Source: Planctomycetales bacterium
GTDB lineage: Bacteria > 4484-113
Direction of reading: 5' to 3'
DNA length: 47,530 nt
Assembly (NCBI GenBank): GCA_030606285.1
Contig: JAUWGS010000016.1
Span: 1-47,530, forward strand
Of the stretch, positions 11,140 through 47,530 are shown piece after piece (the stretch's first letter is position 1; each line of letters begins with the position of its first letter). Below the pieces are notes generated by a model that searched no databases, had not been told where the DNA came from, and was given only the letters and a program-made list of their open reading frames with translations. A program made the position numbers and the translations under genes.

Positions 11140-13743
11140 ATGAGAAAAGTATTATCCCTTTCAATGGGGGCTCTCGCAGTGCTGCTCTTGACAGTAGCTC
11201 TCCTCGGTTGCGGTGGGGGTAAGAGCGCGCCCACCGGCACAAACCTCAAGAGCATGCCTGCCGGCTCCAACCAGAGCGTTGATGATGTCCTGGCGGAGCT
11301 GGAAGCTCTGGAGCCTCCTGAAGGCGTGGATCCAGTCTTGTTTGACCAACTCAAGGAGGAGCTTGGTCGCCAACTGGCTTCCGGCGGAGGCAAAATCGTC
11401 AGCACGCCTTCAAGTTACGCCATCAACGACTTCCTTGAAGTCGACCCGGTTACAGATCCACCGACCGTTACATGGTCGAGTGACAACTTCATTGCCGATG
11501 GCAGTGTTAACGGCTCCGTTGGCATCGAAGACATCACTCCGATTGCCGTTTACTACGGCATGCAGTGGGGTGATCCTGCTGGTGACAAGTATGACCCGCT
11601 GGCTAAGACTGGCGACTACGATCGTGACGGCACCGTGGCCATCGCGGACATCACTCCGCTGGCGGTGACATACGGGCAGGATACTGCGGGCTACATCGTG
11701 GAGTGGGCACTGGACGACGGTGCCGGAGCGCCTGTGGAGGACTATGCGTTGGGCGGAGATGTTGCCTACGATACCGATAGCCACCTCGCTGACAAGAACG
11801 CCAACGGCTTCTGGGTCTGGGAATTCCAGTTCGCCGTTGGTCAACTGCCTGATGTGGACGGCGTCTGGGCAAGGGTTGTCCCATACGATGGGGAAACGGG
11901 ACCGAATAGGGGTCTTCCAAGCGACCCGCCGATCTGGATTGAGCTTGAAGTCATAATTCCGCCCACGTTCTTCGTGACCGATATTCTTGTCCAGGTTACG
12001 AACACAAACAACACCGAGGCGGGGAGCGGATACGAGAACACTGAGTTCTACGTTGCTCCTGCTGGAGGTGGGGATACCTTCGGCGAAGCTCCCGCAAACG
12101 AGCCCATTGTGATGATTCTGTCCGACGTTGCATTCCTGTACGAGGGCAACCCTTACGTCTTCGGTCTGTATCCCGATAACCTGCCAGATGGCCTGACGGT
12201 GGAAGACTTCGACACGATTATGATTGCCCTGCACGGCTTCATGGGCTTTGAAGCAGTAAGCAGCGAAGTACCGGCGGATCCCGAGGCCTGGGCAGAGGAT
12301 GCCGAGCAGCCTGATCAAGGCTATTCCGGCACGCTCGGCCCGAACGATCCTGCCGCCGACCCCGGCTCGCTCCTGCTTACGGCAACCATGGCGGACAACA
12401 CCTACACGCAGGGTGCCGCTACATTCACGGTTACGATTGACCTTGATTTGCTTGAGGACGTGAACGCGCCGGAGATCGAGATGTTCGCGCCACTGGAGCA
12501 GCCTATTAACACGACCGAGGTTCACGTCATTCATATGGATTGGGGTGAGGACGAGACTGAACTCGAGCTGCCGTTGCATGTGGCGCTGTACAATGCTGCG
12601 GATGGCACTGTGGCCTACACGTTTGAATTAGAAGATGAGACCCCGGATCCGCCGGCGGAAGAAGGAAAGTACACGATATCCCGTGTTCCAGAACCAATTA
12701 CCTTTACCACGATAATCCAAGCGAAGGTTGCGGGTCTCTTCTTGACCCAGGGCGCTGATTACGTGTGGCGGGTTTCGGAGGATAATGATGGGTTCGAGCG
12801 TCGTAGTTCACTGAAGAAGCCGGGTGAAACGCTTCACATTTTAGAAGCCAAGTTATTCGACATGAACACCTGGCCCGAGGTGGAGTTCTCAGTTGGTGAT
12901 ATCCGTGCGCCCTACCTCTACTTCGTCCCCGATGATCCGAAAATCCGCCGGAATCCGAAGGGGCACGCGACCATGGAGGAGCCGCCGCAGTTCGAGCCGG
13001 ATGACATCGATGCCTTTGCAGACATAGTGAAGGGCGACCTAGAGGAAGGTGATGAGTTCGAAGTAGTCTACGGGGAACAAGGGCCGCCATCGATACCGGA
13101 CGCCCCAAGGGTGTACTACCTCATGGGTAATGTGACACCAAAGACGATAGGCGAGGCGGACGCTGAGGTGCCACTCTTCTATCGTCAACCGTATCTGTTG
13201 GCTGGTCTTATTGGTGTTGTGGTTGGCACCGGCGACGTCTCCTTCGGGCTATTCGCCCAGGATGGGAAATACCTTGGTGGAGTGACCCGCGAGGTAGCTG
13301 AATTTCCGATTACGCGGCCAGACGTGTTCATTGATGACAGTTGCGATTTCGGTGTACGCCCGTGGGGTAGCGGCTTAGAGACAATTCCTGACTTCGGCGA
13401 CAAAACCGCTTCCAAGGGCGACAAAGACGTGGTTATCTTCACGTTCTACAATCTCTGGCTGCGCCACGACGATAAACCGACGCTTCCCGATGTGCAGCGC
13501 GGCACGCACCTGATCCTGACAGTCGATGGCGGCGCGTCGCTTCCCGACATCCTGCTACGTCCGCACATTTTTGATGTTGACCAGGGAGGCTTGGTGTACT
13601 TCGCTCTTGATGTCTCTGCTGATGATTTCTGGTTCGGCGAATTCACGCAGGAGATTCCCATTAACCCGTACAACGTAACTCTGTATAACCCAGCCGCTGG
13701 TATGGGCGTTACATACCCCGACAATCTCGTGATCACCCCGTAG
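11140..13743 (+). CDS. Lipoprotein with paired dockerin-like calcium loops
   Basis: An 867-residue lipoprotein, lipobox LLGCGG with Cys24. Residues 46-80 carry the family motif (VDDVLAELEALEPPEGVDP then VLFDQLKEEL) shared with the genes at 41330, 43786 and 47173. Two F-hand-like loops follow: DGSVNGSVGIEDITPIAVYYG at about 120-140, without the full set of acids, and DYDRDGTVAIADITPLAVTYG at about 159-179. These resemble dockerin repeats with Asp at loop positions 1, 3, 5 and 12. A fibronectin-III-like segment (YIVEWALDDGAGAP to ARVVPYDGETG) comes next, then about 590 residues of beta-rich sequence I cannot assign. ATG is preceded by AAGGAG. Ends at a strong terminator. Confidence 0.8.
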   Translation: MRKVLSLSMGALAVLLLTVALLGCGGGKSAPTGTNLKSMPAGSNQSVDDVLAELEALEPPEGVDPVLFDQLKEELGRQLASGGGKIVSTPSSYAINDFLEVDPVTDPPTVTWSSDNFIADGSVNGSVGIEDITPIAVYYGMQWGDPAGDKYDPLAKTGDYDRDGTVAIADITPLAVTYGQDTAGYIVEWALDDGAGAPVEDYALGGDVAYDTDSHLADKNANGFWVWEFQFAVGQLPDVDGVWARVVPYDGETGPNRGLPSDPPIWIELEVIIPPTFFVTDILVQVTNTNNTEAGSGYENTEFYVAPAGGGDTFGEAPANEPIVMILSDVAFLYEGNPYVFGLYPDNLPDGLTVEDFDTIMIALHGFMGFEAVSSEVPADPEAWAEDAEQPDQGYSGTLGPNDPAADPGSLLLTATMADNTYTQGAATFTVTIDLDLLEDVNAPEIEMFAPLEQPINTTEVHVIHMDWGEDETELELPLHVALYNAADGTVAYTFELEDETPDPPAEEGKYTISRVPEPITFTTIIQAKVAGLFLTQGADYVWRVSEDNDGFERRSSLKKPGETLHILEAKLFDMNTWPEVEFSVGDIRAPYLYFVPDDPKIRRNPKGHATMEEPPQFEPDDIDAFADIVKGDLEEGDEFEVVYGEQGPPSIPDAPRVYYLMGNVTPKTIGEADAEVPLFYRQPYLLAGLIGVVVGTGDVSFGLFAQDGKYLGGVTREVAEFPITRPDVFIDDSCDFGVRPWGSGLETIPDFGDKTASKGDKDVVIFTFYNLWLRHDDKPTLPDVQRGTHLILTVDGGASLPDILLRPHIFDVDQGGLVYFALDVSADDFWFGEFTQEIPINPYNVTLYNPAAGMGVTYPDNLVITP

Positions 13744-13770
13744 TATTTGCAGCTGATTCAAGTACTCAAG

Positions 13771-13802
13771 AAGGGGCTCCCGTAAGGGAGCCCTTTCTTT
13801 TA
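13771..13802 (+). terminator. Rho-independent terminator after the dockerin-like lipoprotein
   Basis: GGGCTCCC (13774-13781), loop GTAA, GGGAGCCC (13786-13793), then TTTCTTTTATT. The flanking AAG and TTT extend the stem. Confidence 0.85.
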
Positions 13803-13829
13803 TTCAGGTGATGGTGGTGGCTGCAGCTC

Positions 13830-14456
13830 TCAGGTGTCCAGGATCGGGTGTGGACGTGTGATGCGCGTCTGGCCGCCGATGACTTCCACGACGGCGGAAG
13901 GCTCGGTGCCACATTTTCCGCTATCAACAGCCAGCCCTACGCTCGATGCTCCGCTAAGCTGTGCGATGACTTCCTTGAGCGAAGGCGGCGTTGGATGCCC
14001 TTCAAGATTCGCGCTCGTGGCCATCAGCCATCCGCCGCAGCGAGCGAGGACTTCCTGCAGCACCGCGTGGTCGGGGATGCGCACGCCGATGCGGCTGTAG
14101 GGCAGGTGCGTGAGTGGTTCAGGCAGCGCATTCCCCCAGGTTGCCCGGTCGGCTACGATGGTGAGTGCGCCGGGTATCAGCTTCTTGGCGCCCGGCAGTG
14201 AGATCATGAGCTCCCGCATGTGTTGCACCAGTGGCGCATCCGTCGCGACAAGAGCGGCAATGGGCCTGTCGGAAGGGCGCCCTTTGAGCGCGTTCAGGCG
14301 CGCAAGCTGCTCAACATCCGTCCCGTGAATCATTAGCCCGTACACGGTGTCGGTGGGGAAGATGACAATGCCGCCCGCCAGCAGGAGTTCTGCGGTCTGC
14401 GCGACGATTTCAGATCGGGTCGTCTCGTCCAGTTTGAGCACGTTTATCCCGCCCAT
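13830..14456 (-). CDS. tsaC: L-threonylcarbamoyladenylate synthase (TsaC/Sua5 family)
   Basis: A 208-residue YrdC-domain protein that makes threonylcarbamoyl-AMP from threonine, bicarbonate and ATP for the t6A37 modification of ANN-decoding tRNAs. GGIVIFPTDTVYGL near the N-terminus and LKGRPSDRPIAALV are the signature nucleotide- and carbamoyl-binding segments; TSANLEGHPTP corresponds to the conserved SAN motif. There is no C-terminal Sua5 extension, so it is the short TsaC type. The ATG at 14456 overlaps the end of prmC by 13 bases, consistent with translational coupling at the end of the rpmE-prfA operon. Confidence 0.93.
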   Translation of the reverse strand: MGGINVLKLDETTRSEIVAQTAELLLAGGIVIFPTDTVYGLMIHGTDVEQLARLNALKGRPSDRPIAALVATDAPLVQHMRELMISLPGAKKLIPGALTIVADRATWGNALPEPLTHLPYSRIGVRIPDHAVLQEVLARCGGWLMATSANLEGHPTPPSLKEVIAQLSGASSVGLAVDSGKCGTEPSAVVEVIGGQTRITRPHPILDT

Positions 14457-15316: not shown

Positions 15317-15327
15317 CGCCCACCGCC

Positions 15328-16395: not shown

Positions 16396-16408
16396 GCGTG
16401 CACCTTCT

Positions 16409-16414: not shown

Positions 16415-16456
16415 CCGGGAAGTTTCAGAATCCGCGAGTGCCCGGTGTGAACTGCG

Positions 16457-21610: not shown

Positions 21611-21742
21611 ATGTCAGGAACAGTTGCAGACACCTCCAGCAGGTGCGCTTTCCTTGTCTCTGAGCGCGGGCGTTACGTGAAAGGCTGTGTGAGGTGGATG
21701 GGCCGTGACCGGATGGCGCACGCGCTAAGGAGCGGCACTTGA
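21611..21742 (+). CDS. Possible 43-residue small protein coupled to the J-domain gene
   Basis: An ORF from ATG 21611 with a TGA that overlaps the TTG at 21739 (TTGA). The product is basic with two cysteines (SSRCAFLV and VKGCVRW). No family recognised and only a weak ribosome site, so it may be chance; the overlap with the next start is its main support. Confidence 0.3.
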   Translation: MSGTVADTSSRCAFLVSERGRYVKGCVRWMGRDRMAHALRSGT

Positions 21743-23079
21743 GAATGGGACATGGTTTGAAGAACTACTACGTGATCCTCCAGGAAGGACCGGACGCCAC
21801 GTTCCACGATATAAAGCGGTCATACCGCGCGCTGGCCATTGAATGGCATCCGGACCGCAATCCCGGCAACGCGGAAGCTGCGCACAGGATGTCTCTGATA
21901 AACGAGGCCTACGGGGTTCTCTCGGACGAGACGCTTCGGGCCAAATACGACGCAGAGCTGAAGTCCGACCATTTTGTGGAAGCGCAGACGTGGCACATGG
22001 GCGAAACCGAGGGCGTCGGGCTGTGGCCGATGTTCGGTCGTGACTCCGCCCGGATGCGCCGGGGCTCGCATCTCGGACCCGAGAAGCCGATTAAGAAGTG
22101 GACCTTTAACGCCCAAGGCAAGGTGCGCTCTTCTCCGGCTGTGGGGTCTGACGGCACCATTTATGTGGGAACTGATGGGGGATACCTTCTCGCCATCAGG
22201 CCGTATGGCGCAAGGAAGTGGGAATTCAAGGTCGGTGCGCCGATTCGCTCGTCGCCAGCGATTGGCCTGGATGGGAGCATCTACTTCGGGTGCTTCGATG
22301 GCGCGCTCTACGCCCTTGAACCGGACGGCAGCAGGAAGTGGGAGGTTTACACGAAGGAAGAGATTCACGCGTCTCCCCTCGTTGGCCCCGACGGGTTGAT
22401 CTACTTTGGCAGCGGCGAGGGCAAGGTCTACGCGATAAACCCTGATGGCAGCAAGAAGTGGGAGTTTAAGACCGGCTGGCGCGTAAGGTCGTCACCCGCT
22501 CTGTACGAGGACGGTACGGTTTATGTTGGCGGGCTTGACCGCAAGCTCTACGCGATAAGCCCCGATGGGAACAAGGAATGGGAAGTGAGAACCCGCGAGG
22601 GCGTCCATTCGTCGCCCACTGTGAGCAAGGATGGGACTGTGTATGTGGGCAGTAATGACGGTAGGCTGTACGCCATCAATCCCAAGAGCTGGCTGCCTAT
22701 TGGAAAAGGGAAGGTGAGATGGGCCTTCCAGACAGGCCGGGCAATACGCTCCTCGCCTGCCATCGCCGAGGACGGGACCATCTACTTCGGTAGCTACGAC
22801 CATAAGCTGTACGCCGTGACGCCCAGGGGCCGGGAGCGGTGGTCGTTCGCCACAGGCGGAACGATTGAATCATCGCCGGCGGTGTGCCCGGACGGCACGG
22901 TGGTTTTCGGCAGCCTTGACGGCAAGCTGTACGCCGTGAGTTCGACCGGCCGCCTCAAGTGGGAGTTCGAAACCAAGGGCGCGATTGAGTCATCGCCCGC
23001 TGTGGGTGCCGGAGGAACTATTTATGTCGGTTCCAACGATGGCAGGGTATACGCTATCGGTGGCGTGGAGCAGGCCTGA
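21739..23079 (+). CDS. J-domain protein fused to an eight-repeat PQQ-type beta-propeller
   Basis: This 446-residue protein starts with a complete J-domain (about residues 5-70: NYYVILQEGPDATFHDIKRS, then the HPD motif in WHPDRNPG and YGVLSDETLRAKYD). From about residue 113 to the end come eight repeats of about 40 residues of the form SSPAVGxDGTIYVGxxDGxLYAI...W, as in PQQ/WD-like propellers. HPD implies stimulation of a DnaK ATPase; the propeller would supply substrate or partner binding. No signal peptide or membrane helix, so it should be cytoplasmic, whereas PQQ-repeat propellers are more often exported. AAGGAG sits six bases before TTG 21739; ATG 21745 is the alternative. Confidence 0.88.
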   Translation: MRMGHGLKNYYVILQEGPDATFHDIKRSYRALAIEWHPDRNPGNAEAAHRMSLINEAYGVLSDETLRAKYDAELKSDHFVEAQTWHMGETEGVGLWPMFGRDSARMRRGSHLGPEKPIKKWTFNAQGKVRSSPAVGSDGTIYVGTDGGYLLAIRPYGARKWEFKVGAPIRSSPAIGLDGSIYFGCFDGALYALEPDGSRKWEVYTKEEIHASPLVGPDGLIYFGSGEGKVYAINPDGSKKWEFKTGWRVRSSPALYEDGTVYVGGLDRKLYAISPDGNKEWEVRTREGVHSSPTVSKDGTVYVGSNDGRLYAINPKSWLPIGKGKVRWAFQTGRAIRSSPAIAEDGTIYFGSYDHKLYAVTPRGRERWSFATGGTIESSPAVCPDGTVVFGSLDGKLYAVSSTGRLKWEFETKGAIESSPAVGAGGTIYVGSNDGRVYAIGGVEQA

Positions 23080-33715: not shown

Positions 33716-34660
33716 TCACATGCTCTTTAAGAACTTCGGTCCGTTGAAGTGAATCATGTGATCCGGTATCGCGGCGATCCAGACTTCCGTTTCCCAGGCA
33801 ATGTCAGCTATATGTTTCTTGAACTCAACTATATCGGGAAACGCAGTCACGTAGATGCGCTGGAACGAGCATTTCGAGAAAATCTCTTCGAGTTCCTGCA
33901 ATCGCTTAGGCGAAACTGGACCGTGTGATGTGACAGCTTCAACAACGAAAAGGCGACAACTGCCTTTATCAAGCAGGAGTACGTCTGGGAGCTTGTCATG
34001 CTCACTGATCGGCACAGACAACTTCTTCAGCTCTTGCTGGGCGACATACAGAGTCTTCTGTGCAGTATCTCCCATATACAGGAGTTCACCACCGGGGGCA
34101 AACCTAGGCGCGAAATCCTCAACAACGCGAGCCTGTAACAGGCTGTGGGCTCCTGGTGACAGCTCCAGTTTCTGACCGTAAGGGAGGGTTAGCGGAACCA
34201 TTCTAACTTGTCTCTTCTTTCGATAGACATCGACGAGCGCAGGTTGGCTGCTGAGGAATGAGTCAATAGCCTTAGCGTAGCTGCCAGAATCATATGCTTG
34301 GAGAACCTTTACGACTGGCTCACTGAGAGCATAATGTGCTTTCGGGCTGTTTGTTGGCAGGTTAGGGTTATCTGGATTGTATTCTGCTATGCCGCCTTGG
34401 ACAAACTGATGCAGGACCTGACGGCGCACGGATTCTCGTGTGTTAGGTTTGTACTCGCGCCCATACTTGTTTGACATGAACGACATAATGCCCTTAGTTA
34501 TGGTTCTACTGATTCTTTTAGCATCAGTCCACTCGGCGTCTGGTCCTAGGTCAGCGAGCGCTAGTAGTACTAGCGCTGACATCTCATTCTGCTGCGCTTC
34601 AGGGAGTCCGAGTTCTTTTAATATCTCCTGAGCGGCTTTGATTTTATTAGTTTTGCTCAT
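33716..34660 (-). CDS. BsuBI/PstI-family restriction endonuclease
   Basis: A 314-residue type II restriction enzyme. The N-terminal third looks like a winged-helix DNA-binding part; the catalytic region has the family blocks YMGDTAQKTLYV (GDTA 197-200), HDKLPDVLLL (224 onward), VVEAVTSHGPVSPKRLQELE and TAFPDIVEFKKHIADIAWET, ending HMIHFNGPKFL. BsuBI and PstI recognise CTGCAG; that this enzyme shares the target is inference. ATG 34660 overlaps the methyltransferase stop by 14 bases, so the two are coupled. Lower GC than the flanks supports horizontal acquisition. Confidence 0.93.
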   Translation of the reverse strand: MSKTNKIKAAQEILKELGLPEAQQNEMSALVLLALADLGPDAEWTDAKRISRTITKGIMSFMSNKYGREYKPNTRESVRRQVLHQFVQGGIAEYNPDNPNLPTNSPKAHYALSEPVVKVLQAYDSGSYAKAIDSFLSSQPALVDVYRKKRQVRMVPLTLPYGQKLELSPGAHSLLQARVVEDFAPRFAPGGELLYMGDTAQKTLYVAQQELKKLSVPISEHDKLPDVLLLDKGSCRLFVVEAVTSHGPVSPKRLQELEEIFSKCSFQRIYVTAFPDIVEFKKHIADIAWETEVWIAAIPDHMIHFNGPKFLKSM

Positions 34661-36323
34661 TGTCAAGTGCTCGCTCCATTTCCAGCAATTCTATAGGGAC
34701 TTTTAGAACTTGGCGTAGCATTGCGTTAGCACTAGCGTGTTCCCATCTGGTATTTTTCTTCAGCCAGAGATTCCCAAGACGCTTGATATTATCAAGGCTC
34801 GGCAGCGGTAACGATCTCAATTCTGTCGCGCTTACTTGGGTATTGCCGTTCAGTATTCGGAAATACCGGTCCAAGATGGGGCTGTTGAGCAGCAACGATA
34901 GTCCAACCCCCTCCTCTGTACTTAGCGAGCTGTCATAACGATAAATGTAGTTCAGATGATTCTCCAGTCCTATGTGGGTTAGCGATGAGAACTCACTAGG
35001 AGACAGCACGGAAGCTACAATCCTCGATGGCCATTCCTTGGGGCTGAACCTGCGTACCAGTACGCAGGTTCTCAGTGGTACTAGTAATTCACGGCTTCCT
35101 TCGCAAACGGCAATTGCTTCAGGCTTTTTCTGAGCCTTCTTGGAAGGCCAAGTTGTCTGCATTGGGCCAATGTGATGTGACCAAAGTAATGGAACGGCTT
35201 TTCCGCTCCTGTAAGCACTGAGCGAACTGAGATAATGTTTCGCTCGAAAAGGAACAACAGGACCAGTTGACACTCTCAGTCCTGAGCCACCCAATCTACG
35301 GGGCCATGAATCAACATAGTCTAGAAGCCGATCGTCTCTTTGACTAGTGGGTAGACGGAGCGGGTGAATTGGTGACGTTGCGTCAAGTATCCTGTCCAAA
35401 GATACTTTTCTGAATCGGGATTTTTCCAGGTCCCTCTTGCCTACGCTAGAACTAACAGATACCAGGTAGCGTTTTGCCGGATTTCTGGGCATCTTCAGTG
35501 TCTTTAGGATCACGCTTTCCTGGAGGACATCATCTGATGCAAACGTCTCTGTGCGAGAATCGAAAACGTGAATGTGGGCTGGCTGCACTATGCGAAAAAA
35601 CTCTCTGCGGAATCGAGCAAAATAGTGACCGGAACAGAAGCTTCGAGGAGTTATAAATACCATTTGCCCGCTAGGCTTTAGCAAGTATGCTGATAGCATC
35701 ATGAACAGCGCATAGGTGTTGGATACACCCGCTCCGACGTTCTTCGCAATCGCTGCCCTTGAGTCGCTGTTGCGCAGTTTTATATACGGAGGATTGCAGA
35801 TGATTACATCGAAAAGGTCATTGGTCGAGTCCTCTAGGTCTGGATGAAAGGCAAGTCCAGCCCTCGCCACAGTAACGAAATCGTCCTCACGTATGTCGAA
35901 CTCCAGAGCTACATCCCTGCTAGAGCAGAATCTGTGTGCTTGCTCTAGCGCCAACCCTGCGAGTTCTACCATGTGCTGGTCTATGTCATAGCCTACGACT
36001 TGGATCTTCCTGCACGCCTTTGATGCAGCTAGCCTTTCTATGAGCGCGCATGTCAATACCGCGGTGCCGCATCCAGGATCAAGGATTCTTACGCTGGGAC
36101 GTACATCGACCAAGAGGGCCATAAATTTCGCCACTGGGAGCGGTGTAAAGAACTGCCCGACACACTTCCTGCGATCCCGGTCCACAAGCTTTGCAGCTTG
36201 ATCTGACAGTTTGGCTGCCCATGTTGCAGGCGATGCACCCTCTACTAGCTTGGGAAGTGCGGCTACTTCCAGTGACCTGCTGGTCAGGCCCGCGTCAGCT
36301 TCACTTCTGGATCTGCTTTGCAT
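34647..36323 (-). CDS. DNA adenine-N6 methyltransferase of the BsuBI/PstI system
   Basis: A 558-residue N6-adenine methyltransferase. It begins with the QFFTP motif (GQFFTPLPVAKFMALL), SAM motif I is ILDPGCGTAVL (80-90), and catalytic NPPY is at 177-180. A long C-terminal target-recognition region follows, with QVSATELRSLPLP typical of the family. It protects host sites from the neighbouring endonuclease. A TATAAT ends eight bases before the ATG, so its mRNA is leaderless or nearly so; the methyltransferase is first in the operon, which lets protection appear before cutting. Confidence 0.93.
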   Translation of the reverse strand: MQSRSRSEADAGLTSRSLEVAALPKLVEGASPATWAAKLSDQAAKLVDRDRRKCVGQFFTPLPVAKFMALLVDVRPSVRILDPGCGTAVLTCALIERLAASKACRKIQVVGYDIDQHMVELAGLALEQAHRFCSSRDVALEFDIREDDFVTVARAGLAFHPDLEDSTNDLFDVIICNPPYIKLRNSDSRAAIAKNVGAGVSNTYALFMMLSAYLLKPSGQMVFITPRSFCSGHYFARFRREFFRIVQPAHIHVFDSRTETFASDDVLQESVILKTLKMPRNPAKRYLVSVSSSVGKRDLEKSRFRKVSLDRILDATSPIHPLRLPTSQRDDRLLDYVDSWPRRLGGSGLRVSTGPVVPFRAKHYLSSLSAYRSGKAVPLLWSHHIGPMQTTWPSKKAQKKPEAIAVCEGSRELLVPLRTCVLVRRFSPKEWPSRIVASVLSPSEFSSLTHIGLENHLNYIYRYDSSLSTEEGVGLSLLLNSPILDRYFRILNGNTQVSATELRSLPLPSLDNIKRLGNLWLKKNTRWEHASANAMLRQVLKVPIELLEMERALDNEQN

Positions 36324-38402: not shown

Positions 38403-41330
38403 TTACCAGAAGTGCGCGAACGAGAGCCAGTAAGTGACACCCCCAGTCTGGTGAACATATGCCATTGCTGGATTTTCGTCACTATCCAATGCGAGACTGA
38501 CAGCTATAATGGGTTCTTGAGCAGTTGGCAAGGATTCTAGAACCCAATCAGATTCGTCAACGACTCCAGGTAGATAGTATGCAGCCTTTAGCTCATATTC
38601 CGGTAGGTCGCGGTAGAGGTAGTAACCTATGAGTGGTCTATCACTATCGTCGAGCGCAAGACTTGCATACTCGCCGACTTTGTCGTTTGCACCTTCTTCA
38701 TCATCAACCGTCTCAGGATCCCACTCTTCTCCCACCAATTGAGCGAATCGTAAATCTCGAACAATAGCATCCCTGTGGTATGCGACTTTAGGTAAGCCAG
38801 TAGAATCTAAACCCAGAGAAGTATATAAGAGGCAGCAGGGAGGAAATACCCCTTCCTCGATAGTCTCAGGCCACTGCCACTCTCCCGCGAGGCGCTCGAT
38901 TATTTGCGCTCTAGATACCCACTTGGGATCATTAGGCGGATCCGGAACGACAACGTTGGACGTGTAGGCGATAATTGGATCTTCATCGTTTCTCAGGTCG
39001 AGGGAAGTATAGCCTGTCACACTTGTAAGTTCAGGTCCCGGCGCGTCGCCGCCCACAATTGTCTCAATCGACCATTGCCAGCCATTCTCGGGGTCCCATA
39101 TACGTTCGGCATACTTGAGAGCATGGTTTGTTCTGTCAAGGTAGCTAATCGCAGGCCTATCACCAGGGAAAAGCTCCAGGGAGTTGTATCTACCAACGTC
39201 GTCTTCAGTGTCAACCTCGTCCAGTTGCCAGACGCCCCCGCTGTCCCTAAAACAGAACCTTAGATCTGATGGTCCTTGGTGAACGGGATCGAGCGTATAG
39301 GTGTAGCTGATGTTTGGCCGGTCCAGGCTGTCAAACTCGAGGGAGCTCCAGATTCCGGTGTCAAGGTCTTGGTCCACAAGCTCAGTAGACCATGTTACAC
39401 CGTCATATTCTGCAAACCACAGCTGGTGGTTCTTGTGAAAAGAGATGGCAGGGCACCAAACACTGTTGAAGTCCAAGCTGACCATAATGCCACTATCGTG
39501 ACGTGTTGCGTTATCGATATCCTCAATATGCCAGCGGGCGGTCACTCTTAGGATGAACGGCTTCGACAATGCTTCATTGAAAACATCATTCCAGGCGGCA
39601 ATGGATCCACCGTACGTCCGCGCTTCATTCCCCGGGATATCGTCATAGGCAGCGGTCAGGTGTTGGTCGTAAGGAAGGCCATTGAGCAGTGTGACGTCTA
39701 CCTCTACAATAAACGGGCCAATCTCACCCGGTTCGCCGACGGACCCGCTGAATTCATTCGGCTCCGCCCCACCACCAAAATTCCACTCATAGTGGATAGG
39801 CGGTGTTCCGGAAAATGTCACCTGGAAGGTCTTCTCCTCGCCGGAAAGCCCATCTGTTAACGGTGTGATATCGCCAATGTCTACGTGCCGACCAACGTAA
39901 TACTGAAAACCCTCTAAGACCGCTCCAGCATCGTTACTGACCGCCAATGTCCCATTGTAGCTTTCAATTCTAGCGTCACCAAGTATTACGGTTGGGTTCT
40001 CTAGGGTAGACGTATTCGGCGTTGCGCCACCTCCGAAATTCCAGGAGTAATCTCTCGGGGTTGAACCCGTAACTTCAGCGTAGAAAGTTACCACCCAACC
40101 CGGGTCGCCTGCTTCAATCTTCACTCCCATATACTCCATCCAGATCAGGTGAATCTCGGGAGCCACTGGTTCTTCGGTAACAATGAAATGGATATTCCGC
40201 GTGTCCTCTCCATATGCATTAGTCACGGTCAAGCTTGCGTCCCAATCATCGGCATATGGGCCCGTGATCTCTCCATCCTCGACCTCAGCCTCATTCGAGG
40301 TGTTCGGTATGAGATGACCCGCGAAATCCCAGGAGTAATTGAAAGGCGTGGCACCTGAGACCTTGGCGTGGATGCGGTCTACGATATCCCCGGGCATTCC
40401 TGCGATCGGACGAGGTTTCACCCACTCAATCTTTGGAGCAAGGTCTATCGGGTCGGACTCGACAACGTTACTCTCAGCCTGCTCGTGATACCAAGGTTCG
40501 CCATCACCGTCGAGCGCCCGGACTTTGTAGTATCGGTAGTCCTCGCTAGCGAGTTCGTACTCGAACGTATCGCGGAAACCTGCTTCGTGACTTCCACTTG
40601 AGAAGGGAATTGTGGTAATTGGCGTCCAGGACTCACCATCATCTCTTCCGAACACTTGATACTCCGCAACCACCACACCATAGCAGCGCGCGATGGTCTC
40701 TAGGTCATCAGGTGTTTCTGGCAAGTCATCTGCATCCACCCATCCGTCGCCGTCGACTAGGGGATCCTCGTCATCTTCATCTATGAGCTCACGAATGGTA
40801 TTCAACTCTTCGTCCTCATCGTCGACTTGCTGTCCGTAGTAGATGGCAAGTGGAGTAATATCCGCAATAGATACCTGGCTGTCCTGGTTATAGTCACCAT
40901 CGTTCACATATCGCCATTCCAGTTTGCCATAGGCTCCGGCCGCTTTCCATACGAGCTTACGGGCTTTGACGTAATCGTTTGTGCCCAAATAGACAGGCGG
41001 GTCCTCATCATCTCCAGGATATCGACTGACTCCCTTGCCATCGCCGAATGTCTCAAGCAGCCATTCGCGCATGTCCGCCTTGAGCGAAGCCCAAAGCGCG
41101 CTGTCTACCTCAGGTGGCTTATCAAGAGCATCCAGCTCCTCTAGAAGCTCCTCAATTGGCGGGATGTTGCGTCTGCTGAGAACGCTGTGTCCAGACTTGG
41201 ATGCAGGTTCAACGTTGATTGATGGGGCTGAAGTTCTGCTCTTCCCGCAGGAACCGACGATCGCTAACATCAACACTGCCAGGCAGACTATAGCGCCTGA
41301 CAACACCAGTTTCACGCTTAGGTTTTTCAT
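38403..41330 (-). CDS. Large lipoprotein: dockerin-like loop, PKD-like domains, seven-repeat propeller
   Basis: A 975-residue lipoprotein (lipobox IVGSC, Cys29). Residues 57-95 carry the family motif (IEELLEELDALDKPPEVD). A dockerin-like loop DYNQDSQVSIADITPLAIYYG is at 146-166, and a second, weaker loop is DGDGWVDADD. A fibronectin-III-like domain (YQVFGRDDGESWTPI) follows, then three PKD-like domains marked WDFAGHLIPN, WNFGGGATPN and WNFGGGAEPN. The last 330 residues hold about seven repeats of the type YxSLxLDsxdxPxIaY, a likely propeller. AAGGAG precedes ATG 41330. Lower GC than housekeeping neighbours. Probably outer surface; ligand unknown. Confidence 0.78.
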   Translation of the reverse strand: MKNLSVKLVLSGAIVCLAVLMLAIVGSCGKSRTSAPSINVEPASKSGHSVLSRRNIPPIEELLEELDALDKPPEVDSALWASLKADMREWLLETFGDGKGVSRYPGDDEDPPVYLGTNDYVKARKLVWKAAGAYGKLEWRYVNDGDYNQDSQVSIADITPLAIYYGQQVDDEDEELNTIRELIDEDDEDPLVDGDGWVDADDLPETPDDLETIARCYGVVVAEYQVFGRDDGESWTPITTIPFSSGSHEAGFRDTFEYELASEDYRYYKVRALDGDGEPWYHEQAESNVVESDPIDLAPKIEWVKPRPIAGMPGDIVDRIHAKVSGATPFNYSWDFAGHLIPNTSNEAEVEDGEITGPYADDWDASLTVTNAYGEDTRNIHFIVTEEPVAPEIHLIWMEYMGVKIEAGDPGWVVTFYAEVTGSTPRDYSWNFGGGATPNTSTLENPTVILGDARIESYNGTLAVSNDAGAVLEGFQYYVGRHVDIGDITPLTDGLSGEEKTFQVTFSGTPPIHYEWNFGGGAEPNEFSGSVGEPGEIGPFIVEVDVTLLNGLPYDQHLTAAYDDIPGNEARTYGGSIAAWNDVFNEALSKPFILRVTARWHIEDIDNATRHDSGIMVSLDFNSVWCPAISFHKNHQLWFAEYDGVTWSTELVDQDLDTGIWSSLEFDSLDRPNISYTYTLDPVHQGPSDLRFCFRDSGGVWQLDEVDTEDDVGRYNSLELFPGDRPAISYLDRTNHALKYAERIWDPENGWQWSIETIVGGDAPGPELTSVTGYTSLDLRNDEDPIIAYTSNVVVPDPPNDPKWVSRAQIIERLAGEWQWPETIEEGVFPPCCLLYTSLGLDSTGLPKVAYHRDAIVRDLRFAQLVGEEWDPETVDDEEGANDKVGEYASLALDDSDRPLIGYYLYRDLPEYELKAAYYLPGVVDESDWVLESLPTAQEPIIAVSLALDSDENPAMAYVHQTGGVTYWLSFAHFW

Positions 41331-41397: not shown

Positions 41398-41416
41398 TTG
41401 TGGCCTAGATTATGCG

Positions 41417-43786
41417 CTACCAGTAGGCTGCCATTTGGATTTTGGAAACCAGCACAGGATAGCCAGCAGAATGAATAAGCAGCGACAGCGACTCTGTCCA
41501 GCCGGTAATAGGAGCGTCCTGGTAACACCAGACATCATCAGTGCGCCAACCCACCACTGGTTGCTCTTCACCGTAGCGATGCGTGAAGAATAATACTTCG
41601 GTGTCATCCCAAAGCAGGGCTAAGAACGTCACCATACTTACCCAATCAGGATGGCTCTCCACAGGCCCCAGCTCAAAGCTCCCGCCTGGCAGTTCCCGCG
41701 CCATCCGCAATCCCACAGAGCTTCCCCCCCAGTGAAGTATCCGCGCCAAACCCATAGAGTCCAGAGCTATGCCATATGGCACGATGTTCCCGTCGCCCTG
41801 AACTTCAGCGAGGAGCTCGTTTTCCCAGCCCTCATCTGTCTCGCGGTTTATCCTAAGCTCGCTCATGTCCGCATAGCTGTATGCAATAAATACGTGATTC
41901 TCCTCGTCAATCGCCATCTGTCCTCCCGGTTGATCAAGAAACTCCCACCCTCCGGGCGCCTCACGGGCGATATTCCCTCCTCCGTGGTACGAATACTGAA
42001 TTATGGCTTTGCCCGGGGAATCGAAGAAGAGTTGCGAGCTTAACGATATTCCACCGGGATCAATGAACTGGTCAATCCATACTTCCGCTTCCTTGCGGAT
42101 GAAGTGCAGCTGGCTAGTCAAACTCCACTCCCCCGTTCGTAACCCGTAGCTAATCGCTGGGTTGTCCTGTGAATCGAGCGCAAGTGACCAAGACTGCGCG
42201 CCTCCGTCCATTATTTTCTCTATAAGCCATTCGCCATCGACCAGCTTGGCTAAGCGGCTTTCATCCCCTCCAGCTTCGCCCGGTGTTGAGTCGTAGTAAT
42301 ACAAGCCATAGAGATACCCGTCTTGCCCAAAAACGGGCGAGCCCCAATACCAATTGTCTTTGTCAGGAAGCGGGGGTATCTCTTCAACATGCCACCAGGC
42401 GGAGACGTTCAGATCGAAGTCGTGGGTGGTCATACCGAAGGGATTGGTGACTGTGAGACGGGCAGGATAGGTGACGACCGGCTCCGGGAGCGTGCCGCCG
42501 CGCGAAAGCGTGACGGTCGCTGACGGCTGACCGCTGACGCCTGACGACTGATTGGGCGATGCGCCGCCGCCGAAGTCCCAGTAGTACGTGAACGTCTCAT
42601 CGCCGGTGACCTCGGCGGTGAACGTGGCTTCCGTGCCGCTGTCGCCCTCGGTGGGGCTTACCGAGACAATCTCCGGCGGCTCGCCGGGCTCAGCCGTGAC
42701 CGTGAGCGTGAAATGCTTCAGCGCGCTGCCCTCTGCGTTCTCCACCGCAAGCTGCGCGTCGTATGTGTCCACCGCGCCCAGCGTCACCTGGGCTGATACC
42801 TGATCGCTGATGCCTGACGGCTGATTCGGCTCCGCGCCCCCGCCGAAGTTCCATTCGTAGTCAAACGGCGCTTCGCCGGTGACGACCGCGCTGAAACTGA
42901 CCTCGGTTCCCGTGACGCCCCCCAGCGGATTGACGCTGAGGATGCGCACGGCTGGCGGCGGGGCGGCGCTGACTTGGGCGGTGTTGCTCGTATCACCGGG
43001 ATTTCCTTCGTCGTCCACCGGCACAATGCGCCAGTAAAGATACTCCGGCTCCTCGCCTAAGGAATGCTCAAGCTCAAACCGCGTATCGTTAGGCGCGCTT
43101 TCGGGAAACTCAAGCTGCGCTGTTTCGGTAAATTGGCTGCTGAAGAAATGCGAGCCCTGCACCGAATAATGATGGACGTTTACGCCGAAGTACATTGCAA
43201 TGGGCGTGATGTCCGAGATGTGCACGCGGCCATCGGAGTCGCCATCAATCCATTCGTTTTCGGGCGCGGCGTCTTCGCCAAAATGCATCGCCATGGGCGT
43301 GATGTCCTCGATGCCGACAGCGCCGTTCTGGTCGTAATCGCCGCAGTTTCGGTAAAGCCACGACAGGACGTATTCGCCCTCGTCGCTGAGAGAGCATGCG
43401 AGGTCGTCTATGCGGTTGGTGTTGCCGGTGGATGGCGAGGACGCGAGCTTGATATCCTCGCTGTAGGGCGGCCATTTATGGCCGCCGCCATCCATACCAC
43501 TTGTAGAACGGCGGGGATAAATCCCCGCCCTACAGGAATCATTTAGCGCCTCCGCCAGCGCATCCTTCAATTCCTCAAACAACGCGGGATCGACGCCATC
43601 CGGTGTGGGAAGCGCGTCGAGTTCGGCCAGCGCGTCATCAAGGGAATCGGCGGCCTGGAGACCGCCGCTCCCAATGGATGGAGGGTTTACCGCGCTCTTG
43701 CGGCCACCGCAGGTGGTAAATGCCAGCGCGAGCGCGCACAGCACGACGGTGAGGAATATCCCCCGAAGAAACGCCCCTTCCTTCAT
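41417..43786 (-). CDS. Lipoprotein: dockerin-like loops, PKD-like domains, propeller; hosts an in-frame palindromic element
   Basis: A 789-residue lipoprotein (lipobox FTTC, Cys26). Residues 48-82 carry the family motif (LDDALAELDALPTPDGVDP). Residues about 84-109 are encoded by a 75-base palindromic element. Two calcium-type loops follow: DYDQNGAVGIEDITPMAMHFG (150-170) and DGDSDGRVHISDITPIAMYFG (181-201). Next are a fibronectin-III-like segment (YLYWRIVPVDDEG) and two PKD-like domains (WNFGGGAEPN, WDFGGGASPN). The C-terminal 300 residues have about seven propeller-like repeats (SLALDSQDNPAISYG is the clearest). GGAGG precedes the ATG. Closely related to the gene at 38403-41330, 86 bases downstream. 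Confidence 0.8.
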   Translation of the reverse strand: MKEGAFLRGIFLTVVLCALALAFTTCGGRKSAVNPPSIGSGGLQAADSLDDALAELDALPTPDGVDPALFEELKDALAEALNDSCRAGIYPRRSTSGMDGGGHKWPPYSEDIKLASSPSTGNTNRIDDLACSLSDEGEYVLSWLYRNCGDYDQNGAVGIEDITPMAMHFGEDAAPENEWIDGDSDGRVHISDITPIAMYFGVNVHHYSVQGSHFFSSQFTETAQLEFPESAPNDTRFELEHSLGEEPEYLYWRIVPVDDEGNPGDTSNTAQVSAAPPPAVRILSVNPLGGVTGTEVSFSAVVTGEAPFDYEWNFGGGAEPNQPSGISDQVSAQVTLGAVDTYDAQLAVENAEGSALKHFTLTVTAEPGEPPEIVSVSPTEGDSGTEATFTAEVTGDETFTYYWDFGGGASPNQSSGVSGQPSATVTLSRGGTLPEPVVTYPARLTVTNPFGMTTHDFDLNVSAWWHVEEIPPLPDKDNWYWGSPVFGQDGYLYGLYYYDSTPGEAGGDESRLAKLVDGEWLIEKIMDGGAQSWSLALDSQDNPAISYGLRTGEWSLTSQLHFIRKEAEVWIDQFIDPGGISLSSQLFFDSPGKAIIQYSYHGGGNIAREAPGGWEFLDQPGGQMAIDEENHVFIAYSYADMSELRINRETDEGWENELLAEVQGDGNIVPYGIALDSMGLARILHWGGSSVGLRMARELPGGSFELGPVESHPDWVSMVTFLALLWDDTEVLFFTHRYGEEQPVVGWRTDDVWCYQDAPITGWTESLSLLIHSAGYPVLVSKIQMAAYW
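43461..43535. mobile_element. 75-base MITE/REP-like palindromic element inside a lipoprotein gene
   Basis: The ends are CTGTAGGGCGG and its complement CCGCCCTACAG, 11-base perfect terminal inverted repeats. Each end also has an internal palindrome (GCGGCCATTTATGGCCGC and GCGGGGATAAATCCCCGC). Length 75 is exactly 25 codons and the reading frame stays open, so the element lengthens the linker of the encoded protein. No target-site duplication is obvious and no second copy was seen. Confidence 0.7.
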
Positions 43787-43946
43787 TTCGGCTGCCTCCC
43801 TTGCGCCGACTCGATGCGCGGCTTAGCTAGCCGCCTATGCCCAGTATACCCTCAGCCTGACGCGGTTTCAAGCGCTAATCCTCAATTCTTTCGATATTCG
43901 CGCGGGGGACGGTGGCGGAGCAAGCGCTCTGCAATCCCGCCAGTGG

Positions 43947-43952
43947 TATAAT
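43947..43952 (+). promoter_or_regulatory. Possible -10 box (TATAAT) upstream of clpC
   Basis: Perfect TATAAT 81 bases before ATG 44034. The remaining leader is GC-rich and unassigned; a TATCAT at 43991-43996 is a second candidate. I found no CIRCE or CtsR-like inverted repeat. Confidence 0.4.
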
Positions 43953-44033
43953 CACACAGTGGCCGTAGGTTAGGCCCGGATTTTGGGTGGTATCATATAT
44001 GCACACGTCCGGGAATGACGGGTTGCGTAAGTT

Positions 44034-46553
44034 ATGAACATACTAGATTTCTTTTCGTTTTCCGCGAGGAAGCTCATATCTAAGAGCAACGAAGTCTGCT
44101 CCGAGTTCAAGAACCAGTACATCGAGCCGGAGCATATCTTTTACGCCATGCTGTCGCTGCAGCAGTGCAGCGCGCTTCAGGTACTCGCGCACCTGCAGGT
44201 TAACCGCCCCAAGGTCGCGTACTCGCTGGAGAACTACCTCTACGAGCACCAGGGCAGTTACAAGGACCAGCCCAGCTTCTCCCGCCGCACGCTGAACCTG
44301 CTGGATCTGGCCAACCAGGAAGTCAAGCGCCTGCGCCATCGCGAAATCGGCACGACGCACATCCTGGTGGCACTGGCGCAGGAGCCGTCGGACTTTCTAC
44401 AGGAGCTATTTGCGGAGAACAAGCTCACCGGTGATATGATCCGCGAGGCGTTCCTGAACTACCTGCGCAGCGCGGGCAGCCCGCGAGGCGAGCGCAAGGA
44501 GCGTCCGGCGAGCATCGCCGTGAAGTTCTCGCGCGACCTGACCAAGCTCGCACGCGAGGAGAAGCTCGATCCGGTCATCGGGCGCGAGCGGGAGATATCG
44601 CGCCTCATCCATATTCTGTGCAAGCGCACGAAGAACAACCCCATACTCGTTGGTGAGCCCGGCGTGGGTAAGACCGCGATTGTGGAAGGCCTGGCGCAGT
44701 GTATCGTGAGGGGGAAGGTGCCGCACGCGCTGCTGGACCGCCAGCTTCTGGCAATTGACCTCGCTGCGATTGTCGCGGGAACGAAGTTTCGCGGCGAGTT
44801 CGAAGAGCGCCTGAAAGCGCTTATCAAAGAGATACAGGAATCCAAGGGCCGCATCATCATCTTCATCGACGAGCTCCATACCATCCTGGGCGCCGGCAGC
44901 GCCGAAGGCAGCCTTGACGCCTCCAACATCCTGAAGCCAGCGCTGTCACGGGGGGAGTTGAGGTGCATCGGCGCGACGACGTTCAAGGAGTACCGCAAGT
45001 ACTTCGAGAAGGACGGTGCGCTTTCACGCCGCTTCCAGCCGGTGATGGTGGAAGAGCCTAGTTTCGAGGAGACGTGGAGCATCCTGCGCGGCCTGCGCCG
45101 GGAATACGAGAAGCACCACCACGTTTCGATAACCGACGACGCGCTGCGGCAGGCCATCTACCTTTCGGAGCGGTTCATCCCCGACCGCAAGCTGCCGGAC
45201 AAGGCCATTGACGTGATGGACGAGGCGGCGGCGTGGGTCAATCTGGAGATTGACACCCAGCGCAGGAAGGCAGAGCAGGCGCGCAAAGGTGACGTGCCCG
45301 ATGAGGAGACCTTGAGCCTCCTGTCAGGCGAAGAGAGCGAAGCACCAGCTCTCACTGAGGATTTCGACACCAGGAAGCTCGAACGCGCGGGGCGGCTCAT
45401 CGGAATGGGCGCGGATGTTCCCATTGAGAGCGACATAGTGAGCGGCAGCCACATCGCCAAGGTCGTGGAGATGTGGACCGGTATTCCCACCAAGAACATC
45501 ACAATGGACGACCAGGAGCGCTTGTTGCTCCTGGACGACGAGCTAAAGAAATACATCATCGGGCAGGACGAGGCTATCGATATCGTCGTGCGCGCGCTCA
45601 AGCGCTCGTTCAGCGGCGTGCGCCAGACCAACCGGCCCATCGGCAGCTTCGTGTTCCTGGGTCCGACCGGCGTGGGCAAGACCGAGCTTGCGCGCGTGAT
45701 TGCGCGTGAGGTTTTTTCGCACCCCGACGCGTTCGTCAAGATAGACCTTTCGGAATACTCGGAGAAATTCACCGTCAGCCGACTGCTCGGCGCTCCGCCG
45801 GGCTATGTGGGCTACGACGAGGGCGGCCAGCTCACCGAGCTCGTGAAGAAGCACCCGTACTCGCTGGTGCTGTTCGATGAGATGGAGAAAGCGCATCCCG
45901 ACATCTTCCACACGTTGCTGCAGCTGCTCGACGAGGGTGTGCTCACCGACGGCCAGGGCCGGAAGGTGCACTTCCACAACACCATCGTCATATTCACCAC
46001 GAACCTCGGCGGCAGGTTCTTCGACTCAACCGGCGAAATCGGCTTCAAGCACGAAACGGTCGAGACCGACGAGGAGATTACACGCCGCCACGAAGGATAC
46101 CGGCAGCGCGCCGACGAGTTCCTGCTCAAGGCGTTCAGGCCCGAGTTCCTAAACCGGCTTGACGAGATTGTGCATTTCAACCCGCTGGGGCGCAAGGAAG
46201 CGACGAAGATCGCACAGCTCGAACTGGGCCTTCTTGCCGAGCGCCTGGAAGAGGCAGGCCACAGCGTGAGTTTCACCGACGCCGTAGCAGACAGAGTGGT
46301 TGAAGAGGGCTTCAGCGCATCTTACGGCGCCCGCAATATCAAGCGCACCATCAGCCGTATGGTGGAGGATCCCATCTCAGAGCTGGTGCTGGAAGGCAAG
46401 ATGAAGGCCGGGGATGAGAATGTGGCCTTCACGATGGACGAAGAGGGCATACTCCGCATGGAGTTTGACCCCGCGCGCCTGGCAGTGGACCACTTCAAAG
46501 CGGAAGCTGAAACCGGTGACACCGCGCCGGCTGACGACCTGAGCACCGACTGA
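44034..46553 (+). CDS. clpC: ClpC-type AAA+ unfoldase with short middle region
   Basis: An 839-residue two-ring Clp ATPase. The N-domain is at about 1-145; D1 Walker A is GEPGVGKT (207-214) with IIIFIDELHTILGAG; D2 Walker A is GPTGVGKT (543-550) with LVLFDEMEKAHPD. It would feed unfolded proteins to ClpP or act in disaggregation. The region between D1 and D2 (about 405-495) is short and acidic, lacks a UVR-type coiled coil and the long ClpB middle domain, so adaptor use may differ from standard ClpC. The D2 small domain ends in FSASYGARNIKRTISRMVED, followed by an acidic tail. I did not see a clear IGF/LGF-type ClpP loop, so partner choice is open. Confidence 0.9.
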   Translation: MNILDFFSFSARKLISKSNEVCSEFKNQYIEPEHIFYAMLSLQQCSALQVLAHLQVNRPKVAYSLENYLYEHQGSYKDQPSFSRRTLNLLDLANQEVKRLRHREIGTTHILVALAQEPSDFLQELFAENKLTGDMIREAFLNYLRSAGSPRGERKERPASIAVKFSRDLTKLAREEKLDPVIGREREISRLIHILCKRTKNNPILVGEPGVGKTAIVEGLAQCIVRGKVPHALLDRQLLAIDLAAIVAGTKFRGEFEERLKALIKEIQESKGRIIIFIDELHTILGAGSAEGSLDASNILKPALSRGELRCIGATTFKEYRKYFEKDGALSRRFQPVMVEEPSFEETWSILRGLRREYEKHHHVSITDDALRQAIYLSERFIPDRKLPDKAIDVMDEAAAWVNLEIDTQRRKAEQARKGDVPDEETLSLLSGEESEAPALTEDFDTRKLERAGRLIGMGADVPIESDIVSGSHIAKVVEMWTGIPTKNITMDDQERLLLLDDELKKYIIGQDEAIDIVVRALKRSFSGVRQTNRPIGSFVFLGPTGVGKTELARVIAREVFSHPDAFVKIDLSEYSEKFTVSRLLGAPPGYVGYDEGGQLTELVKKHPYSLVLFDEMEKAHPDIFHTLLQLLDEGVLTDGQGRKVHFHNTIVIFTTNLGGRFFDSTGEIGFKHETVETDEEITRRHEGYRQRADEFLLKAFRPEFLNRLDEIVHFNPLGRKEATKIAQLELGLLAERLEEAGHSVSFTDAVADRVVEEGFSASYGARNIKRTISRMVEDPISELVLEGKMKAGDENVAFTMDEEGILRMEFDPARLAVDHFKAEAETGDTAPADDLSTD

Positions 46554-46593
46554 GAGCGGAGCGTCTGATACCTGTTAGCTGATTACCTTCCCG

Positions 46594-47061
46594 CTAATTC
46601 TGCCCGCCCATGAATTGCTGGGAGCCGGCGGTGTTGACCGGCGGGTGGAGCAGGTCGTCGCGGTCGGGATGCAGCTCGCCGGTCGTGCGCTCGTAGAGGT
46701 ATAGGTATATCATCCCCGCGATGCCCGCGTTCATCAGCGCGCCGGGCTTCTTCATCATACGCTCGATGATGGGCTCCCATTCCTCGCCGACGAAGTGGTC
46801 CAGGCCGCGCTCCCTTTCGTGGCACATGTTGCAGCGCGCCTTCCATATCGTCTCGGGGTCCATGCCGATGATGTCGGCGCCTATTTCCGGCTCGGCGGGC
46901 TCCTTGGGCTGAGCGGCGATGGGATTGTTGAGGTCGAATTCAGGCTCGGAGGTATCGGCATCGGGAGGCGGCGCGCAGGAGCCGGCAGTTAGGAAAAAGA
47001 TGAACACCGCGAGGGCCAACGCCCCTGCCGCAAAGCCAAATGTGTCTTTGAGCGCGTGCAT
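46594..47061 (-). CDS. Lipoprotein with single c-type haem motif
   Basis: A 155-residue lipoprotein. The signal helix FAAGALALAVFIFFLTAGSC ends in a lipobox. An acidic, Pro-rich linker follows (DADTSEPEFDLNN). CNMCHE is a CxxCH haem c attachment site, and the segment that follows (WEPIIERMMKKPGALM) holds methionines that could be the distal ligand. Resembles small cytochrome c domains that carry electrons on a membrane anchor. TATAAT ends seven bases before ATG 47061, so the mRNA is predicted to be leaderless; the longer upstream frame is not used. No redox partner is adjacent. Confidence 0.75.
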   Translation of the reverse strand: MHALKDTFGFAAGALALAVFIFFLTAGSCAPPPDADTSEPEFDLNNPIAAQPKEPAEPEIGADIIGMDPETIWKARCNMCHERERGLDHFVGEEWEPIIERMMKKPGALMNAGIAGMIYLYLYERTTGELHPDRDDLLHPPVNTAGSQQFMGGQN

Positions 47062-47068
47062 ACACTCA

Positions 47069-47074
47069 ATTATA
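47069..47074 (-). promoter_or_regulatory. -10 box (TATAAT), predicted leaderless promoter of the cytochrome lipoprotein
   Basis: Perfect minus-strand TATAAT, seven bases before ATG 47061, no Shine-Dalgarno between. Confidence 0.55.
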
Positions 47075-47123
47075 CCGTGAGGCTGGCCGCTTGCGCGCAT
47101 CTGCAGTATTAGAAATCTGCGGG

Positions 47124-47129
47124 TATACT
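47124..47129 (+). promoter_or_regulatory. -10 box (TATACT) of the last lipoprotein gene
   Basis: TATACT with a leader of about 37 bases containing CAGGAGTGG before ATG 47173. Confidence 0.45.
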
Positions 47130-47172
47130 TAGGTGAGAGTCCAGGTAACACTGATTTTTCAGGAGTGGAAGA

Positions 47173-47530
47173 ATGGGGCTATTTCGGAAGTCGGGAACAC
47201 TTCGGGTCGCCCTTGTGCTGCTTGCAGCGCTGGCCGCGCTGTCGCTGACCACATGCAGCGGGAAGAAAAGTAGCACACCACCGACGCTTCCATGGCTTGG
47301 CACGGAAACTGAATCCACAGCGCCGCAAGCTGAGAAGCCCGGTGAAGCCAATACGGACCCGCTGATGGAACGGCTGACCGCGGCGCTTACGGATGCGCTG
47401 AAGGCGCGCGGGGGGAAGGTTGCGGCGGCGGCGCCTTCCGGCGAAGGCAATCTCATCGTGGATCTCAACTGCTATGCCGGCGGCGTCGGCGGCAATCGGC
47501 TCGTATGGCATTACCGCAATCTGGGCGATT
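47173..47530 (+). CDS. Fourth member of the dockerin-like lipoprotein family, cut by window end
   Basis: About 119 residues are visible. ATG 47173 follows AGGAGTGG. The signal helix VALVLLAALAALSLTTC gives lipid-attachable Cys28. DPLMERLTAALTDAL matches the second half of the family motif in weaker form. The last residues, DLNCYAGGVGGNRLVWHYRN then LGD, align with DLACSLSDEGEYVLSWLYRN and CGDYDQNG just before the calcium loops of the 41417-43786 protein. The first loop should begin right at the window edge. The frame is open to the end. Confidence 0.75.
   Translation, partial: MGLFRKSGTLRVALVLLAALAALSLTTCSGKKSSTPPTLPWLGTETESTAPQAEKPGEANTDPLMERLTAALTDALKARGGKVAAAAPSGEGNLIVDLNCYAGGVGGNRLVWHYRNLGD

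Follow-up and report, generated by a model that had tools for sequence, protein, structure and literature searches.

Lipoproteins of Candidatus Niteriota with a dockerin-like calcium-loop pair predicted to be nested in a fibronectin type III domain, and their candidate cohesin partners

Type I and type II dockerins (Pfam PF00404; 2y3n_B and 4fl4) consist of two 22-residue F-hand repeats that carry calcium ligands in the pattern D1-D/N3-D/N5-D12 and give the module a near-twofold internal repeat. They are free modules, mostly C-terminal, and in cellulosomes they are carried mainly by glycoside hydrolases. Noncellulosomal sets of cohesins and dockerins have been described in ANME (anaerobic methanotrophic) archaea, where their role is open (PMC9012536), and in Candidatus Stygibacter (PMC8542988). 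In the present work, a window of 47,530 nucleotides was analyzed, which is the entire contig C9 (JAUWGS010000016.1) of a 2.30-Mb genome in 36 contigs from Planctomycetales bacterium, and four of its genes, here termed A to D, belong to a family of lipoproteins with a dockerin-like pair of calcium-type loops, hereafter the plug. The ANME and Stygibacter sets resemble this family in that cohesin and dockerin modules are present in organisms without classical cellulosomes. However, their dockerins were found by standard domain models, whereas the plug appears to be built into a fibronectin type III (FN3) domain, and the family is carried on lipoproteins and is phylum-wide, with 28 to 115 copies in nine genomes and 4 in a tenth.

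As judged from alignment and structure prediction, these proteins begin with a lipobox and a short helical hairpin, which are followed by an FN3 domain that carries a dockerin-like pair of calcium F-hands in its B-C loop. In an alignment of 32 members, an A strand (VDDL) and a B strand (YTLSWHYRN) are followed by GDYDQNGTVGISDITPIAMHYG...DGSGNGVVDIADITPIAMNYG and then by GYxVE...F...YYRVVPYDSEG, so that the alignment, when read without its middle section, gives an FN3 pattern. An AlphaFold2 (AF2) model of the front of gene C, built on sequences from the window and related loci only, has a mean predicted local distance difference test score (pLDDT) of 89.8 and a predicted template modeling score (pTM) of 0.82. 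Its elements run in the order strands A and B (residues 87-90 and 96-101), two F-helices, one after each loop (116-124 and 147-155), and strands C-G (163-214). Residues 72-233 of the model align with FN3 domains when the insertion is skipped (7y5r, Z 8.6, 100 residues aligned, 3.1 Å), and nearly all of the 50 rows in the structural comparison are FN3. When the loop pair was removed, a profile of the remaining flanks matched fibronectin, the Fn3-like 3mpc and titin (E 0.004-0.02), among other FN3-containing proteins of the PDB; the seven-strand FN3 sandwich is thus supported by the model, the structural matches and the loop-excised profile. The family shares with FN3 (PF00041) the strand order A, B, C, C', E, F, G, together with the Trp in B, GYxV in C and YxVxPxD in F, but it differs in the insertion of roughly 60 residues with the calcium loops, and by sequence PF00041 barely detects it; a Pfam scan of the excised flanks returned a single weak fn3 match (0.016). 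A sequence-only reading of this window had overlooked the FN3 domain and had taken the loops for a free module downstream of a W-x-YRN-x-GD region. Alignment and model instead place them between FN3 strands B and C, so that the "W...RN" segment corresponds to strand B, and GYxV...YRVVPYD, downstream of the loops, makes up the rest of the FN3 domain.

With the loops included, the family profile A2 matches PDB dockerins over both repeats (2y3n_B, E 3e-4; 4wi0, 0.0024; 4fl4, 0.03). When the complete front model was submitted to Foldseek, most of the proteins listed were FN3 proteins, no hit reached E 1e-3, and dockerins were missing from the list; the dockerin assignment is therefore based on sequence and on the predicted pair of loops and helices, which is present, as had been anticipated, in the model of gene C. 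With its neighbors in frame, one member reaches 22.9 bits, which is at the Pfam Dockerin_1 cut-off. Among 113 loop pairs, collected by a pattern that demanded D/N at position 1 and D/E at position 12, the first loops have D/N at position 3 in 95% and at position 5 in 90% of cases, while the second loops have D/N/S at 3 and D/N at 5 (87%). This conserved ligand pattern suggests that the pair binds calcium. Thr14-Pro15 at the helix start (the TP of DITP), which was not set by the pattern, is conserved across the two repeats in 85-96% of the pairs. The plug thus resembles type I and type II dockerins in its repeat length, ligand pattern and internal near-symmetry. Unlike them, it lies within the FN3 B-C loop near a lipoprotein N-terminus, bears the signature DITPxA(x)2YG and mostly falls under the Pfam cut-off. 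Type I dockerins have a symmetric dual binding mode, which the near-identical DITPxA of the two family repeats recalls, although as a resemblance only. Dockerin, FN3 and cohesin are each known, but their combination was not found in the open literature searched, nor was a description of a dockerin nested in FN3.

The helical hairpin is predicted with high confidence by AF2 and has no clear relative; consistent with the earlier description of the N-terminal motif as new, no Pfam or NCBIfam model covers it in full-protein scans. Weak matches to ubiquitin-binding motifs (REV1 and polymerase iota, E 0.2-1.3; UBM, 0.05) were treated as chance. The hairpin is not, as had been supposed, the defining front of the whole family: in about seven members from the window's genome, a domain of approximately 100 residues takes its place, and this domain is cohesin-like.

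A hidden Markov model (HMM) built from the four genes was expected to recover a coherent family that is restricted to one lineage and has calcium sites; such a family of lipoproteins, with calcium loops of the dockerin type, was indeed recovered, its matches in the same genome lying far above chance. Within the window's genome, a single-protein search gave 71 matches and profile A2 gave 69, and iterated HMM searches on the genome stretches around the matches settle at 60 open frames, some of which are fragments at contig ends. These frames comprise approximately 46,000 residues, or roughly 6% of the genome. The GTDB phylum concerned, 4484-113, has been named Candidatus Niteriota (PMC11382960), and a search of open-access papers returned only one paper naming it. 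The window's genome is placed in this phylum because 4484_113 belongs to the same family, and GMC4 shares its genus. The family is present in all ten of the phylum genomes examined (567 matches). Outside the phylum, which accounts for about 180 of the 192 genomes searched, two matches were obtained at E 1e-6, both to the loop pair only at approximately 29 bits, a level that points to generic dockerin similarity. A scan of about 85,000 species, which used only two motif patterns and would miss distant relatives, returned contigs of seven metagenome-assembled genomes (MAGs), including "Planctomycetales bacterium 4484_113", GMC4.metabat2.94 and HKST-UBA03, as well as three stray contigs. Two of the latter, from Bathyarchaeota and Kazan MAGs (L121 and L138), were probably mis-binned in the public genomes, as they match contigs of the Niteriota MAG GMC4 at 99.4% and 100% identity; a contig from a Nanoarchaeota MAG (L094) is suspected of the same. 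To our knowledge, the phylum has no cultured member.

The C-termini change behind the common front, as had been read from the window alone. Approximately half of the 60 members carry PKD domains, and BamB/SBBP-type propellers, carboxypeptidase-regulatory-like domains and Ig-like domains also occur. Glycoside hydrolase catalytic families were detected at E 1e-8 in two of the 60, namely one GH5 cellulase-type and one GH114 domain. The final 303 residues of A (residues 565-867) are 71% identical to the end of a lipoprotein on contig C3 (L035:2895-5855, minus strand), whose front half consists of ordinary FN3-like and PKD-like domains without a plug. This shared end is direct evidence for the exchange of modules between fronts and ends. 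Elsewhere in the family, two adjacent short members (L010:5699-8184, minus strand) contain two FN3-plug units per protein, apparently through internal duplications.

Candidate binding partners were found in the same genomes. A profile of the domain that replaces the hairpin (A5) matched 15 PDB chains, of which 14 were cohesin or scaffoldin, and the Pfam Cohesin model matched 14 of 34 members, the best at 3.4e-6 (27.8 bits against a cut-off of 24.1) and the others more weakly. The same domain ends a small lipoprotein of 264-307 residues composed of an Ig-like and a cohesin domain, a homologue of which is present in all ten phylum genomes, cut by a contig end in one. For the AF2 model of this Ig-cohesin lipoprotein (pLDDT 85.2), the 37 best VIA rows are all cohesins (Z 10.2-12.3). 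Its gene in the window's genome (contig C15:38837-39652) directly adjoins a family member, and in 4484_113 it lies about 100 bases upstream of one. Both the Ig-cohesin lipoprotein and the N-terminal domain of some members thus resemble cohesin (PF00963; 5nrm_A, 2xdh and 4uyp_A) in fold and profile; unlike known cohesins, they occur on lipoproteins, one per frame among the matches listed, with no scaffoldin arrays seen. Each phylum genome encodes 5 to 40 cohesin-type domains, 203 in all and about 11 in the window's genome, and their number correlates with that of the plugs (Spearman 0.73, n = 10), which is only indicative since the genomes are related. Separately, an ordinary Dockerin_1 match of 35.3 bits lies in a 585-residue frame outside the family set (G000 C27:41026-41175, minus strand), and this protein may be another client of the cohesins.

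Together, these observations lead us to favor, with a fair measure of confidence, a calcium-dependent cohesin-dockerin network of lipoproteins on the cell surface that is not cellulosomal. Each protein would be tethered to a membrane by its N-terminal lipid. The anchor would be followed directly by the helical spacer, which a cohesin domain replaces in some members, and the FN3 domain would display a calcium-loaded plug in the B-C loop, which in FN3 domains often forms a binding face. The plug would most likely bind cohesin-fold domains, both those of the Ig-cohesin lipoprotein and those with which other members of the family begin. The Ig-cohesin lipoprotein, which is small, could serve as a base receptor, and members that combine an N-terminal cohesin with a nested plug could act as links joined head to tail, while the C-terminal PKD, propeller and occasional enzyme modules would be what is displayed. 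Since matching cohesin proteins are present in every genome examined, the cells may clip together a protein coat. That the whole phylum builds a self-assembling, non-cellulosomal coat of this kind through a calcium-dependent dockerin grafted into the FN3 B-C loop is a more tentative proposal, and we hold it to be somewhat short of an even chance. As for location, lipobox cysteines were found by pattern in most members (for example ALLGCG, IVGSCG, AFTTCG and SLTTCS), and the +2 residues are Gly or Ser, which is compatible with an outer-membrane site. The window also encodes a YjbH-type exopolysaccharide protein, and because of this protein and the lipobox +2 residues the organism appears to be diderm.

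Several points weigh against such a network. The pairing of plug and cohesin is deduced, and surface exposure is suggested only by the lipobox +2 residues and the diderm-type neighbor. Plug copies exceed cohesins by approximately 2.8 to 1, and no multi-cohesin scaffoldin was seen in this genome of 36 contigs, where the cohesins lie in different frames among the matches listed. Most members fall below the Pfam Dockerin_1 cut-off, with weak matches in eight of the 60. Moreover, dockerins are not usually nested in this way, and two of the loops, the second of B and the first of A, make poor calcium sites. A loop pair set between two strands of another domain, with some loops degenerate, could instead have a structural role as a calcium staple by which the FN3 domain is stiffened; each protein would then work alone as an adhesin or a sensor, and the cohesins would serve other dockerins, such as the ordinary Dockerin_1 protein noted above (C27:41026), at least one of which the genome encodes. 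We consider this staple unlikely: Thr14-Pro15 is conserved in both repeats even though neither residue is a calcium ligand, and cohesins accompany the plugs in all phylum genomes in correlated numbers.

The idea that the front is a sorting or export tag, which keeps the lipoprotein unfolded in the cell, folds on meeting calcium outside and so brings varied cargo to the surface, draws on the occurrence of one front on dozens of differing C-termini, on its position directly after the lipid anchor and on calcium sites of the extracellular type. It is made improbable by the replacement of the hairpin by a cohesin in some members and by lipoproteins of the same genome that carry similar cargo without the front, such as the C3 protein that shares its C-terminus with A. 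A cellulosome-like complex for polysaccharide degradation would account for the co-occurrence of dockerin-type and cohesin-type modules, and for the GH5 and GH114 domains. Yet with catalytic glycoside hydrolase families in only two of the 60 members, cargo consisting mainly of PKD domains and propellers, and no multi-cohesin scaffoldin among the matches listed, this explanation can be given very little credence. The cell-surface network thus remains our preferred reading, and the earlier suggestion of a docking front is strengthened by the cohesin-fold proteins of all ten genomes, although docking itself is deduced. If it is correct, a large non-cellulosomal cohesin-dockerin system would occupy roughly 6% of a small genome, and nesting of the dockerin in another domain would mean that most of such a system can fall below the cut-offs of standard domain models. 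The nested plug would also offer a ready-made test of dockerins as grafted loops, which is relevant to designed protein assembly, and because matching cohesins are available, recombinant proteins would allow the hypothesis to be tested directly.

All four genes assigned to the family by the sequence-only reading exist and have in common a lipobox, the helical motif and the W...GD and loop region, with details that vary by member. Gene A (11140-13743, plus strand) encodes an 867-residue lipoprotein whose lipobox Cys is residue 24 (11140-11211). Its helical hairpin motif (SVDDVLAELEALEPPEGVDPVLFDQLKEELGRQLA; 11275-11379), assigned by alignment to the helices predicted in C, precedes an FN3 domain with the nested pair at 11431-11946, in which strands A-B (11431-11493) and C-G (11686-11946) flank a first loop with weak ligands (ADGSVNGSVGIEDITPIAVYYG; 11494-11559) and a second loop (GDYDRDGTVAIADITPLAVTYG; 11611-11676). 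Genes B (38403-41330) and C (41417-43786) are real but are encoded by the minus strand, and the corresponding frame of the plus strand is full of stops. The 975-residue lipoprotein B has its lipobox at 41247-41330, a PKD domain and C-terminal repeats. Its helical motif is weak (LDALDKPPEVDSALW; 41058-41162), and its FN3 domain (40455-40931; strand B, 40899-40931; strands C-G, 40455-40667) holds loop 1 at 40833-40898 and a degenerate loop 2 at 40677-40760. C is a 789-residue lipoprotein (lipobox, 43709-43786) with two PKD domains and C-terminal repeats. Its hairpin motif lies at 43541-43645, where AF2 predicts helices (model residues 6-15 and 24-43), and is followed by the modeled FN3 domain at 42965-43414 (strands A-B, 43343-43414; strands C-G, 42965-43174) and its loops at 43277-43342 and 43184-43249. 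Gene D (47173-47530, plus strand) is incomplete, since the contig ends after its FN3 strand B, and in it the helical motif is barely present. The W-x-YRN-x-GD region holds in C (WLYRNCGD) and D (WHYRNLGD), is altered in B (WRYVNDGD) and is absent in A (WSSDNFIADG). Likewise, each of the three complete genes has two calcium-type loops, but only in C are both good; the others are uneven, with a weak first loop in A (DGSVNGSVGIED) and a degenerate, split second loop in B (VDGDGWVDADDLPETPDDLETIA).

The linker between hairpin and FN3 domain has a basic length of 6-9 residues, and in about two-thirds of the hairpin members it is extended to 17-48. It is here that the INTERSPERSED repeats sit, and interspersed DNA repeats, translated as part of the gene, account for many of the added segments. 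In the linker of C, the in-frame copy (43445-43543, minus strand) is a palindrome for which the genome contains 56 matches when both orientations are counted; several copies lie upstream of other members or elsewhere. A second linker repeat family has 48 genome matches. At least eight distinct insert sequences occupy the homologous linker site. The insertions, found in about two dozen members besides C, include several unrelated and partly palindromic repeats, which shows that this linker tolerates, or attracts, insertions. Most insert types also occur outside family genes in the genome stretches examined. HEQWGAS... and DQRF... were seen there inside the family only, and may have spread by gene duplication. 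Palindromic elements inside genes are of a known kind in Rickettsia, and the linker repeats resemble these.

Directly upstream of A, a gene at 9811-11004 (plus strand) encodes a 397-residue lipoprotein in which a PKD domain is accompanied by a beta-rich domain at the C-terminus, and this gene pair is kept in a sister species (G001:C17:14507 and 15823). The beta-rich domain recurs in several other proteins of the phylum; it looked cohesin-like by eye, but it gave no cohesin match by sequence and is not claimed as one. Beside a ClpB/ClpC-type ATPase gene and gene D lies a gene for a small lipoprotein (46594-47151, minus strand) with a CNMCH heme-binding-type motif and no Pfam match. Elsewhere in the window, a BsuBI/PstI-type restriction endonuclease adjoins an Eco57I-type N6 adenine methylase (33716-36323, minus strand), and a J domain (DnaJ) is fused to a BamB-like beta-propeller in a single protein (21739-23079, plus strand).

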